A DNA stretch of 64,000 bases, from the NCBI GenBank assembly GCA_009746045.1, contig RPFO01000072.1, positions 5,972,933-6,036,932 on the forward strand, written 5' to 3'. This DNA is from Mesostigma viride. Lineage: Eukaryota > Streptophyta > Mesostigmatophyceae > Mesostigmatales > Mesostigmataceae. Each line of letters opens with the position of its first letter. Position 1 is the first letter of the stretch. Of this stretch, positions 794 to 36,169 are shown piece by piece. Under the pieces are notes generated by a model, which had not been told where the DNA came from, searched no databases, and saw nothing but the letters and a program-made list of their open reading frames with translations. A program made the translations under genes and the position numbers.

Positions 794-2584
794 ATGGACA
801 GCTCAGGAGCTTGCAGCCCCCCGCGCCAACTCCCGCGTCAGGAACCCAATCCGAAGCCAGGGGACGGTGCTGTGCATGACTCATATTGTAGTACAGTACT
901 AGGTGCCGGCGCCCCTACTGACAGCGTCGGCAACGTTGTACGTGTGTCGATATCGATGGCGATAATGGATTCCGCTCAGGTGCACTTGGCCTCGGTTCAA
1001 TCACTGCCCATGCAGAACGGCGCAAGGGAGCATTTGCAGGCGCTTTGGGGCTTCCTTGATCGTTGTCTTTTGCAACAAGTGAACGTGGCAGACAACGCAA
1101 AGCAGGCTAACGTGAAGCTGAGAAGCATTCGCAAAGCTTCTGCCTCCCAGGTCCTGCTGAAAGACAATGGGTTGACATTCCAGGCGATTTTTGTCGACAT
1201 CTTAGCTCCTCACCTCAAGGAAGCGGCCAGACTGGCACTTTCGCACCCTGACATCTGCAGGCATCTCGCACTGGAGCTCGCCAGCTTCTGTAACTGGTTC
1301 TTGTGTGACAGTTTGCTGGCCCTCGCTCCGTTCGAGAATCCCAACAGCTACATAAAATGGAAGCTTGTTGAGAAACTTCTTCATCGTGATATTTGCGTTT
1401 ACCCTCGTCCAACCCAAGCCTGTTTGACACCGTTGACAAATGCGCAGGAGTTTGAGCCTAACAGCTTGCCACCTCCAGTGGCCCTCTTATCCCCTCTGCA
1501 GGTGTTCGTCCGGCTGGTGACGGCGCCAACGGAGGATCATTCCAAACGCCCTAGCTTTGCTGTGACTGACATTGAGGCAGAACAAGGGGTGTTGGAGTTG
1601 CTCGATAAGGCGTGGGCATTGTCACGAGGACCTATTCCACCCGGCCTTGACATTCAGCAGTTCTCACCACTTGTCGACGACTTATCTTGTCTGTGCGCCA
1701 GCGCCTTGTTTCCGCCTGTCCCTGCTGGCGTGGATTCTGCCCCTGGGGAAAGGGTGCCAGATGACGTTCAGTCTTTTGTCAATGCAGCCATTGCATCGGA
1801 CAAGTGTCAGGTCGGCAGCCGTGATGGTCCTTCCTCAAATTTAAAGTCACCTGCGAATATCGTGCTCGTTTACACCGATGGGCGGAAGGCCAAGCTGAGG
1901 GCAGGTGATGTGGTGCGACCGCGGCGATCTGCCTTGGGCCTGATCACTGGTATCTTGAGCACCGCCAGCGAGGCGAGCATTCTGCCTTCTGAGGAGGATC
2001 TAAAAGGTGGTGCAGCAGTGCTGTGCAACATGGGAGCATTTGCAGATCACGTCGATCTGGTTTGCTTGGATAAGAAGGACTTGCAGCTGTCCGAAGCTGC
2101 CCTCTCGCAGCTGCTGCGAGCAGTGGGCTATCGGCTGCCTGTCCTTGCATCGTTTGTCGACAACGTCCTCACCAAGCTGTTGCAGCGAGGTCTCGTGCGC
2201 AACGCCTTGGTTTGTGCTCGAGAAGTGTTGTCAACCCTTGTCACACGGGATGCCGGCACCGCCGGGCCGTCCGATCGCCCATGCGATGAGGTGCATAGTG
2301 GCCAGAAGGCGGCCTTCGCGGCCTTTTCGAGGATGCTTGGTGGGTGTCTGTCCAATTTTGCGCCCGGGGACCAGCTAGCTGTGCTTCAGGCACTGTCTGA
2401 AGCTGCAGTGGAGGCAACGTCCATCCCCACCCGTAAGCTCAGCCTGGAGACCTTCCTGGCGGTAGCCACCCGTATGCGCGAGAAGAATGCAGCGCTGGGT
2501 GTGGAGTCACTGCGCGCATTGGTCCGCTTCTACTATGTAACGGATGGCAGCAGCAAGGTGTCACACGATGCCGAAGAAATCGAT
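794..2584 (+). CDS. Giant gene exon 1: helical N-terminal region
   Basis: Encodes residues 1-597 and ends in phase 0 at GAT|GTAAGT. No catalytic domain is recognisable. The sequence is mostly leucine- and alanine-rich helix, with a short strand-rich patch near residue 350 (IVLVYTDGRKAKLRAGDVV). The first 55 or so residues are proline-rich and of low conservation value, so initiation at ATG 965 (good context, A at -3 and G at +4) is possible. The open frame extends upstream only to a TAG at 686, so an additional 5' exon cannot be excluded. Confidence 0.7.
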
Positions 2585-35500: not shown

Positions 35501-36169
35501 TACGCCTTTGTGGGCTACCGAGACTTTGAAGCTCAAGCCAACCACTTTGCCATTCACGACTTTGCCCCTTTCGAGGCACTGGCACCAGAACATGTTCAGA
35601 GGGGTGGTGCCGCGGCGATCCGTGAGTTTGATGCCCAATACCAGGAGAAGTGCGCTGTTGGCGTGCAAGATTTCTTGGCTCCCTTGGAAGCCAAGTCGTG
35701 GCGTGGGTGCGACTTCCCTGAAGACGTTCTTGGCGCTCTGCAGAAGGTTGCAGACTTAAGTTGGGAGTCCAAGGTGCGCTACTGCTTCCTCATTGGTGAT
35801 GCGCCAGCCCATGGCACCGAGTTCCACGATTTCGATCCCAAACATGACAACTACCCCAACGGGCACCCGTACGGCCTCACTGGGGAGAGTGTTATCCGGG
35901 CACTCAGCGTGGTTAAGCGTGTGCGGCTGTACATGTGTCACATGGTTGTAAGAAACACACGAAAGATGTTCAAGGCCCTTCATCAGGCACACAGTCTCAT
36001 TCCTGAAGATCCAGATTTTCATCACAAGTCAAAGACGGAACCTGTGGAGATTGATCTGGAGGCTGCTGGGAAGAAGAGCCCTGAGGATCCTGCTGCTGGG
36101 ATGATTCAAATACTGGACCGCCAAATTTCAGAGAACATCTCGAGGACTCTGGCCGTGGATTACCTGTAG
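794..36169 (+). CDS. Giant midasin/dynein-like AAA+ protein with ASH-like and three vWA domains (six exons, about 9,566 aa)
   Basis: Proposed CDS: join(794..2584, 4472..6465, 7441..10725, 13223..30318, 30945..34714, 35405..36169). All five introns begin GT and end AG. Phases 0, 2, 2, 1, 0 match on both sides of every junction, giving 28,701 nt with no internal stop. Domain order: helical N-terminus (residues about 1-1030); six AAA+ modules with Walker A regions near 1060, 1556, 1887, 2213, 2901 and 3281; long helical and coiled-coil region (about 3650-6600); beta-sandwich repeats with ASH/HYDIN-like VDFG motifs (about 6640-7260); helical region; vWA domains with MIDAS motifs near 8637, 9057 and 9306. 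Six AAA modules plus a C-terminal vWA recall midasin, which remodels pre-ribosomes. Midasin is about half this length and has neither the ASH-like repeats nor three vWA domains, so I infer a separate giant AAA+ mechanoenzyme of unknown substrate. ATG 794 has a good context (GGCATGG). ATG 956 or 965 are alternatives. Confidence 0.82.
2585..4471 (+). other. Intron 1 of giant gene (1,887 bp)
   Basis: GTAAGT donor and CTCTGCAG acceptor. AT-richer than the exons. Contains a (GA)n run at about 3092-3112. The small open frames inside it (for example 3116-3451) show no domain and are treated as chance. Confidence 0.8.
4472..6465 (+). CDS. Giant gene exon 2: helical linker and AAA1 (intact)
   Basis: Encodes residues 598-1261 plus two bases of codon 1262. 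About 430 helical residues precede AAA1. AAA1 has Walker A GGTGVGKS (about residue 1060), the strand motif SSRITAEDLVGKIS, Walker B WLLLDELNLA (about 1130), the AAA_5-type 'AAQNPNAGLFKGK' sensor region and a C-terminal SSSFLNRF. Both nucleotide-binding motifs are canonical, so this site is predicted to bind and hydrolyse ATP. The pattern is that of dynein-related AAA_5 modules such as those of midasin. Confidence 0.82.
6466..7440 (+). other. Intron 2 of giant gene (975 bp)
   Basis: GTGAGA donor and TATCCGCAG acceptor. Includes a short imperfect tandem repeat of a GGCCATTGTTTGGG-like unit, about three copies, at 6550-6597. Nothing else recognised. Confidence 0.8.
7441..10725 (+). CDS. Giant gene exon 3: AAA2, AAA3 and first half of AAA4
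   Basis: Encodes residues 1262-2356 plus two bases. AAA2: Walker A GPTGCGKT (about 1556) but Walker B VVLLDAINEA, where the catalytic Glu is replaced by Ala, followed by ERLNPVLE. AAA3: canonical GPAAVGKT (about 1887) and WFLADEFNLA (about 1951), then SPALRSRF. AAA4 begins with GPTSCKS (about 2213), a Walker A shortened by one residue and lacking the second Gly. The exon ends in a charged helical stretch (residues about 2285-2356) that forms part of a long insertion inside AAA4. AAA2 and AAA4 share a TP(D/E)xEAxELVG motif after Walker A. Confidence 0.82.
10726..13222 (+). other. Intron 3 of giant gene (2,497 bp) with large microsatellite
   Basis: GTAATG donor and CGTCTGCAG acceptor. Joining CG|G restores an Arg codon in frame. 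About half of the intron is the simple-repeat tract at 11375-12598. Long open frames on both strands here are only translated repeats (poly-Arg, poly-Ser, poly-Leu and similar). Confidence 0.82.
11375..12598. repeat. Compound trinucleotide/hexanucleotide microsatellite, about 1.2 kb
   Basis: Successive blocks read on the + strand: (GTAGCA)n about 11375-11552, (CAGCAA)n about 11590-11715, (GTC)n about 11726-11940 with a short CCT block, almost pure (CTC)n about 11973-12372, (GTCCTC)n about 12376-12537, then (GTC)n to about 12590. The blocks look like successive expansions of related CAG, CTC and GTC units. The CTC block is a homopyrimidine/homopurine mirror tract able to form triplex DNA. It lies wholly inside intron 3 of the giant gene. 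Confidence 0.97.
13223..30318 (+). CDS. Giant gene exon 4 (17.1 kb): AAA4 end, AAA5, AAA6, coiled coils, ASH-like repeats
   Basis: Encodes residues 2357-8055. It opens with an acidic, Ser-rich insertion (about 2370-2560) inside AAA4, whose degenerate Walker B AVLLEDLNLP follows near 2608. AAA5 has canonical GPPGIGKT (about 2901) and WILLDEINLA (about 2967), but its usual NRF/SRF arginine position reads ANLF (about 3030). AAA6 has GDTGTRKT (Arg for the second Gly) and WVLLDNINSA. Coiled coils are visible near residues 4041-4140, 5195-5303 and 6035-6065. Beta-rich repeats with IVVDFGPV (about 6655) and VVDFGDLL (about 6770) resemble ASH/HYDIN Ig-like domains, and a third similar unit lies near 7130. 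The rest is helical. The exon is uninterrupted for 17,096 nt and ends in phase 1 at GACG|GTAAGG. Confidence 0.83.
30319..30944 (+). other. Intron 4 of giant gene (626 bp)
   Basis: GTAAGG donor and CTTGCAG acceptor. A strongly G-rich segment at about 30519-30567 (repeated GGGG and GGGGG runs) could form a G-quadruplex on the + (transcript) strand. Confidence 0.8.
30945..34714 (+). CDS. Giant gene exon 5: vWA1, vWA2 and start of vWA3
   Basis: Encodes residues 8056-9312. vWA1 has the MIDAS motif ILLDNSGSM (Asp at about 8637), then FGDSG and MVTDALSNE, typical of the metal-site loops. vWA2 has VAIDISVSM (about 9057), ILTFGSAV and VFVLTDGYSTQG. vWA3 starts at FAMDITESM (about 9306) and is interrupted by intron 5 immediately after its MIDAS strand. 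An acidic, charged linker precedes vWA1. In midasin a C-terminal MIDAS/vWA domain binds substrate ubiquitin-like domains and presents them to the AAA ring. A comparable substrate-capture role is inferred, not shown. Confidence 0.82.
34715..35404 (+). other. Intron 5 of giant gene (690 bp)
   Basis: GTATGT donor and CTCTTGCAG acceptor, phase 0. AT-rich, with no recognised element. Confidence 0.8.
35405..36169 (+). CDS. Giant gene exon 6: remainder of vWA3 and C-terminus
   Basis: Encodes residues 9313-9566 and the TAG stop. Continues vWA3 with RYAFVGYRDF and FLIGDAPAHGTEFH, motifs typical of the vWA type found in VwkA-like alpha-kinase proteins. No alpha-kinase domain follows. The protein ends about 50 residues after a charged tail, with a final helix (MIQILDRQISENISRTL). 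Confidence 0.8.
   Translation, partial: GLLDQAKRHIVEIIANIQTKVLANAPTDIVFRYAFVGYRDFEAQANHFAIHDFAPFEALAPEHVQRGGAAAIREFDAQYQEKCAVGVQDFLAPLEAKSWRGCDFPEDVLGALQKVADLSWESKVRYCFLIGDAPAHGTEFHDFDPKHDNYPNGHPYGLTGESVIRALSVVKRVRLYMCHMVVRNTRKMFKALHQAHSLIPEDPDFHHKSKTEPVEIDLEAAGKKSPEDPAAGMIQILDRQISENISRTLAVDYL

Follow-up and report, generated by a model that had tools for sequence, protein, structure and literature searches.

Dynein and midasin are the textbook AAA+ machines that carry six modules in a single chain, and a gene of the green alga Mesostigma viride raises the question of whether its product, a giant protein of similar plan, belongs to either of them or to something else. The gene lies within a stretch of 64,000 nucleotides (C113:5972933-6036932 in the 440 Mb M. 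viride assembly; the window), at positions 794-36169 of the forward (+) strand. We put a probability of roughly 0.6 on the reading that the giant is one chain of 9,566 amino acids (aa), related to midasin (MDN1/Rea1) but distinct from it, and a predicted remodelling motor that we infer to generate force, with ATP hydrolysed only at modules AAA1, AAA3 and AAA5.

The initial annotation had joined six exons in matching phase into a single frame of 28,701 nt, and this gene structure holds: five phase-matched GT-AG introns connect the exons below into a coding sequence of that length with a single terminal stop and no internal one, and two paralogues can be rebuilt with the same phases. Its domain order was also right, with six AAA+ modules followed by a long arm, beta repeats of ASH type and three vWA domains, and all three kinds of domain were found.

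794..36169, + strand: whole gene, six exons, 9,566 aa (splice reconstruction; exon plan common to two paralogues)
794..2584, + strand: exon 1
4472..6465, + strand: exon 2
7441..10725, + strand: exon 3
13223..30318, + strand: exon 4, 17,096 nt, open over its full length
30945..34714, + strand: exon 5
35405..36169, + strand: exon 6, including the stop codon

GC content at third codon positions is 0.60-0.79 in the exons, whereas intron GC is 0.45-0.54. Two JGI models in EukProt, Mesvir1 Mv01936-RA.1 and RA.3, are 100% identical to the reconstruction over aa 1-7163 and 2378-9566; together they cover all five junctions, and neither alone has all five. RA.1 takes an extra intron within exon 4 and so shifts to a different frame, in which it stops at about 28.6 kb; this deviation, at window 27639-28639, is either an annotation error or a truncated isoform. 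Two overlapping models, one of them with an additional intron, might also be expected if gene prediction had fused neighbouring genes. We regard such a fusion as highly improbable: intron 3 falls within AAA4 and intron 5 within vWA3, so that these two are whole only once spliced and separated halves would be broken domains; the single frame and its introns are kept in the two paralogues; and P0019, whose source name denotes a transcript assembly, has the ring from the end of AAA1 together with Pfam domains of ASH type and vWA in one open reading frame of 7,465 aa.

The paralogues are full length and lie in the same genome, where probing with AAA4-AAA6 and then with vWA2 detected at least three giant loci (C113, C224 and C1106), a lower bound because only the best candidates were scored. 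At about 9,550 aa in three copies, the giant is presumably among the largest proteins predicted in any green alga.

C224:6070404-6102972: paralogue of 9,542 aa, full length, exon plan as in the window gene (gene 1); identity to gene 1 of 70% (AAA4-AAA6 probe) and 87% (vWA2 probe)
C1106:6386608-6422934: paralogue of 9,555 aa, full length, exon plan as in gene 1; identity to gene 1 of 58% and 71% with the same probes

All three genes have five introns, which match in phase and lie at alignment columns 683, 1377, 2499/2499/2505, 8476/8478/8481 and 9833, that is, at identical columns for three junctions and at most 6 columns apart for two, the splice sites of the paralogues having been chosen under guidance of the gene 1 phases. 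Between genes 1 and 2, nonsynonymous divergence (dN) is lower than synonymous divergence (dS) in 7 of 7 segments, with dN 0.269 and dS 0.88 over the full length, 0.185 and 0.69 in the AAA region, and 0.134 and 0.75 in the vWA region. Chance or fused frames were rejected on the paralogue exon plan together with dN below dS.

Like midasin, the giant has six AAA_5-type modules in one polypeptide, a long arm and a C-terminal MIDAS-type vWA. However, canonical MDN1 is a separate gene of M. viride on C1557, at about 669.8-703.2 kb, and the giant is therefore not MDN1. Plant, seal and sponge midasins align with the C1557 gene from AAA1 through to its final C-terminal piece. In this gene, the Walker A and Asp-Glu motifs are intact in AAA2-AAA5 and AAA2 carries a long insert, and its ring groups with Digitaria MDN1. 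Its main exon, C1557:672665-688712, is one open stretch of 5,349 aa.

A search with the ring scored 744 candidates, of which 378 reached 1e-3 or better and 120 were listed. Among the matches listed, Mesostigma's own two entries were followed by 33 entries at 1390-627 bits, and canonical midasins appeared from 448 bits down; the upper-scoring group included no named vertebrate, land plant or fungus. Its named members come from Rotaria, Adineta, Apatococcus lobatus and Prymnesium, the others being EukProt, metagenome and ENA entries, and a search with the vWA tail added three family members. In a 42-row ring tree (30 database giants, the three Mesostigma genes and nine MDN1), the 33 giants and the nine MDN1 stood on opposite sides of a branch of 1.87 changes per column, with a Shimodaira-Hasegawa-like approximate likelihood ratio test (SH-aLRT) value of 100, and a mixture model on 26 rows gave the same split, again with SH-aLRT 100. 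Giants P0016, P0022, P0035, P0064 and P0123 (near-copy, partial or divergent) and MDN1 entries P0038 and P0087 were left out of the 42-row tree; these seven rows agree with the residue pattern of their own group wherever readable. P0064, of 7,669 aa, combines a ring score in the MDN1 range (435 bits) with the catalytic pattern of the giants, and is perhaps a deep branch of the giant family.

The best PDB match of AAA4-AAA6 was midasin, at 2.4e-121. Identity as MDN1 was ruled out by the separate MDN1 gene and by the giants' own group in the trees, and dynein by its PDB E value of 0.0075 against that of midasin. The giant shares with cytoplasmic and axonemal dynein heavy chains the single-chain six-module ring, and Pfam dynein motor profiles match it weakly, but it has vWA domains and its ring is closer to midasin by sequence; no Pfam match at E <= 0.01 to a microtubule-binding stalk domain was found when the exons were scanned piecewise, and no RING, the E3 module of RNF213, occurred among Pfam matches at that threshold. 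The proposal of an undescribed midasin-like giant in the initial annotation is thus borne out by midasin as the best PDB match, by a ring group of its own and by the recurrence of ring and C-terminal vWA in relatives. Of the outcomes that it had named as refuting, that of a full-length orthologue already assigned as MDN1 did not come about: a canonical MDN1, of which the giant is not an orthologue, exists separately. Homologues occur in Apatococcus lobatus and Prymnesium and also in bdelloid rotifers. Beyond that annotation are the two paralogues, the alternating ATPase pattern, and the likeness of vWA1 and vWA2, but not vWA3, to the MIDAS domain.

We then come to the ring itself, in which each module was read for its Walker-A Lys, its Walker-B Asp-Glu and its arginine finger.

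5777..7525, + strand: AAA1, aa 1033-1290, over intron 2; Walker A GTGVGKS, Walker B LLLDELN, catalytic Glu present
8243..8995, + strand: AAA2, aa 1530-1780; Walker A intact, Walker B DA (Glu lost), without H2 insert
9248..9985, + strand: AAA3, aa 1865-2110; Walker A and DE intact
10223..14552, + strand: AAA4, aa 2190-2800, over intron 3; P-loop GPTSC-KS one residue short, Walker B ED
14790..15572, + strand: AAA5, aa 2880-3140; Walker A and DE intact, arginine finger lost (NLF)
15915..17102, + strand: AAA6, aa 3255-3650; P-loop GDTGTRKT, Walker B DN (Glu lost)

Over the 33 giant rows, the Walker-B DE is present in AAA1 (31 of 31 readable), AAA3 (33/33) and AAA5 (33/33), whereas AAA2 has N or A in place of the Glu (32 of 32 readable), AAA4 reads E-D in 31 rows and E-N and E-G in one each, and AAA6 has N, G or H (33/33). 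As read from these alignments, the catalytic Glu alternates strictly in every readable giant, present in AAA1, AAA3 and AAA5 and absent from AAA2, AAA4 and AAA6, which is a new finding. MDN1, in contrast, is catalytic at AAA2-AAA5 and not at AAA1 and AAA6, a pattern taken from nine entries (11 with read-back of the rows left out of the tree), AAA1 being unreadable in five of the nine and the AAA2 Walker-A Lys in four; in MESVI_MDN1 this Lys is misaligned, and intact by motif reading. All 37 readable giants lack one residue of the AAA4 P-loop, which none of 11 MDN1 does, and where all nine MDN1 have R as the AAA5 finger, the 33 giants have L, M, F, S or H. The fingers of AAA2 (32 of 32 readable), AAA4 (33/33) and AAA6 (33/33) are kept in the giants and would serve sites 1, 3 and 5. 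In Rea1, AAA2-AAA5 are described as the functional sites and an AAA5 helix as the source of the finger of site 4 (PMC6286127); since the AAA5 finger serves site 4 there, the degenerate site 4 and the lost AAA5 finger of the giants fit together.

Two further features of MDN1 are absent. The spacing between Walker A and Walker B of AAA2, where MDN1 carries the helical H2 insert, is 59-73 residues in the 32 readable giants versus 144-195 in 82 of 83 readable MDN1 (97 in the remaining one), and 258 by motif positions in the MDN1 of M. viride itself. The D/E-rich tail before the MIDAS domain is likewise lacking, the maximum D/E fraction per 100 aa being 0.22-0.30 in seven giants versus 0.41-0.49 in four MDN1. 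The corresponding AAA4 spacing is 276-481 residues in the 33 giants, compared with 67-190 in nine MDN1, and 393 in the window gene, including an acidic stretch. In catalytic pattern, AAA2 insert, acidic tail and tree grouping, four defining features, the giant differs from MDN1, and judged by its sequence it is not a member of that family; it differs further in its three vWAs, its length of 9,566 aa and its likely ASH array.

The C-terminal vWA domains provide the second link to midasin.

32576..33202, + strand: vWA1, aa 8600-8808, MIDAS motif DNSGS; related to the MDN1 MIDAS domain
33881..34507, + strand: vWA2, aa 9035-9243, MIDAS motif DISVS; related to the MDN1 MIDAS domain
34646..36085, + strand: vWA3, aa 9290-9539, over intron 5, motif DITES; VWA_4-like below cut-off

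Among 14 rows, the motifs are retained wherever readable, as DxSxS in vWA1 (13/13) and vWA2 (10/10) and DxTxS in vWA3 (9/9). The C-terminal MIDAS domain was matched by the vWA2 profile in 80 of 84 MDN1 (best 4.1e-16) and by the vWA1 profile in 29 of the 84 (best 6.6e-14), E values that refer to this small set; nine further, off-site matches of the vWA1 profile are of no weight, and the vWA3 profile matched none of the 84. A C-terminal MIDAS vWA homologous to that of MDN1 is therefore present, and duplicated, in the giant. A C-terminal vWA was also found in 11 relatives (P0121, P0019, P0024, P0035, P0122, P0123, P0023, P0008, P0013, P0003 and P0010), P0023 being without vWA1.

The shared ring and the MIDAS-type vWA1 and vWA2 would also suit an MDN1 duplicate that has stayed in ribosome assembly as a second midasin, still removing factors from pre-60S or organelle ribosomes, and for which the ASH domains are an incidental scaffold. 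We consider this unlikely, in view of the long separating branch (1.87) and the spread of members over algae, a haptophyte and rotifers, which speak against a recent duplicate, and of the other catalytic pattern without AAA2 insert or acidic tail.

The distinct, midasin-related motor that we favour would differ from midasin also in its place of action, to which the beta repeats of the arm point.

26037..27152, + strand: likely three ASH/PapD-like beta sandwiches, aa 6629-7000 (predicted structure)
27153..28052, + strand: further stretch, aa 7001-7300, with some predicted strands (low-confidence model)

In a Foldseek search, the modest model of these repeats resembled ASH folds of ciliary central-pair proteins, HYDIN and CEP192, that is, the fold characteristic of ASH/PapD-like HYDIN, CEP192 and CFAP proteins. 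Among relatives, Pfam places Cep192_D3 above cut-off in P0122 and ASH at cut-off in P0121, and the Mesostigma ASH profile matches P0122 beside the place of Cep192_D3. The arm thus likely carries cilium-type ASH domains, and docking on cilia or centrosomes, the bold part of our reading, appears likely from the same model. The tandem beta sandwiches are the feature that the giant likely shares with HYDIN, CFAP-type ASH proteins and CEP192; to our knowledge these have no AAA+ ring or vWA. The resemblance to central-pair proteins, the huge size, the three of six ATPase sites without catalytic Glu and the short AAA4 P-loop could also describe a mostly structural ciliary or centrosomal scaffold, with the ring as a nucleotide-gated hub and HYDIN-like anchoring without force. 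This we find improbable, as even very divergent members show no change, wherever their rows can be read, in the catalytic residues of sites 1, 3 and 5 or in the fingers that would serve these sites, features needless in a passive scaffold.

Taken as a force-generating motor, the giant may work as follows. The three hydrolysing sites of the ring, each flanked by silent ones, would move the arm, while vWA1 and vWA2 would hold one or two ligands via a bound metal, and the stroke would pull these ligands off a larger assembly, as Rea1 does with Rsa4 and Ytm1. Through its ASH array, the machine would attach to a structure built on microtubules, likely a cilium or basal body, and not to the pre-60S ribosome. 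In Rea1, the pore is plugged by the AAA2 insert, and ATPase activity rises 10-15-fold once this insert is deleted (PMC6286127); because the plug is absent from the giant, the enlarged AAA4 insert would be the likely autoinhibitor in its place.

Several observations weigh against this reading. A lost Glu is no proof of a dead site, and AAA1 (29 of 31 readable) and AAA3 (33/33) likewise retain their fingers, which for their part would serve the silent sites 6 and 2, so that these two sites may still bind nucleotide. Among the named matches listed, ciliated vertebrates were found only with MDN1, and the giant is therefore not needed for cilia in general. The ASH model has a mean predicted local distance difference test (pLDDT) score of 45, with blocks in residues 30-400 ranging from 34 to 77; the Foldseek template modelling scores were low, the fold also occurs in TRAPPII, bacterial pilus chaperones and copper oxidases, and a Pfam scan of the Mesostigma protein gave no ASH. 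The AlphaFold model of vWA1-vWA2 was unusable (pLDDT 36), a C-terminal vWA was found in only 11 of 37 relatives searched, many entries being partial, and four of the 11, P0008 (Rotaria) with P0003, P0010 and P0013 (grouping with Rotaria), show vWA1 alone. A profile search of the arm against 84 MDN1 gave no match. Finally, the 42-row tree, a quick one, came with warnings that long branches may have met and that composition is uneven, and the branching within the giant family is therefore not relied on.

We propose tentatively, and with some doubt, that dynein and midasin may have a third counterpart in the giants, a further class of AAA+ motor with six modules in one chain. Its three-stroke ring would alternate strictly between hydrolysing and silent sites, its members would have some 6,000-9,600 residues, and their ASH domains would couple cargo capture of the midasin type to cilia or centrosomes. 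The class would be of such age that green algae, haptophytes and rotifers have it in common, and elsewhere it would have been lost or simply missed. A separate, widely scattered family with another set of active sites allows one to ask which sites, and what number of them, are required for force in a one-chain ring, the alternating pattern being a natural mutant series; if true, the combination of ring, MIDAS and ASH array would tie the midasin lineage to cilia or centrosomes and bear on the origin of dynein-like motors. A ring of alternating unlike modules is also described for the Pex1/Pex6 heterohexamer (PMC10518020); however, that system consists of two proteins in two stacked rings, D1 inactive and D2 active, whereas the giant alternates catalytic residues within one chain.

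No description of the giant, and no paper joining midasin with Hydin, was found in the literature. The sole mention met of such a protein, in PMC7943196, is a 7,479-residue protein of Rotaria magnacalcarata "of unknown function", partly similar to midasin, whose gene was hit by a transposon; it is likely a member of the giant family. Midasin homology is also noted for an open reading frame of a planarian retrotransposon (PMC6431247). The main text of the M. viride genome papers PMC7027972 and PMC6947507, in the portions available, does not contain the word "midasin".

The remaining regions of the protein are the following.

794..5770, + strand: N-terminal region, aa 1-1030, over intron 1
17103..26012, + strand: arm, aa 3651-6620, fast evolving
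28143..30302, + strand: region aa 7331-8050, aligned among the three Mesostigma genes only

The exon-1 part of the N-terminal region had no Pfam hit, and the region had no profile match in other family members. Profiles of the N-terminus, arm parts 1 and 3, region 7330-8050 and the pre-vWA region matched nothing beyond the Mesostigma genes, and that of arm part 2 weakly matched three Rotaria proteins; seven region profiles gave zero matches among the 84 MDN1. An hhalign comparison of the arm with the MDN1 linker returned a degenerate two-column alignment of no weight, and a search with part of the arm and the ASH region (1,036 candidates scored) returned only the two Mesostigma entries.

Short tandem repeats occupy about 1.3 kb of intron 3 (window 11300-12585), where both strands also show long but spurious open frames. 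Elsewhere in the window, 42496-43443 on the - strand is a reverse transcriptase fragment (Pfam RVT_1, 2.2e-21), 48151-49266 on the - strand is a CDC50/LEM3 family gene in one open frame (Pfam 1.8e-86), and 62453-63115 contains arrays of 42-43 base repeats with longer periods of 85 and 127-128.

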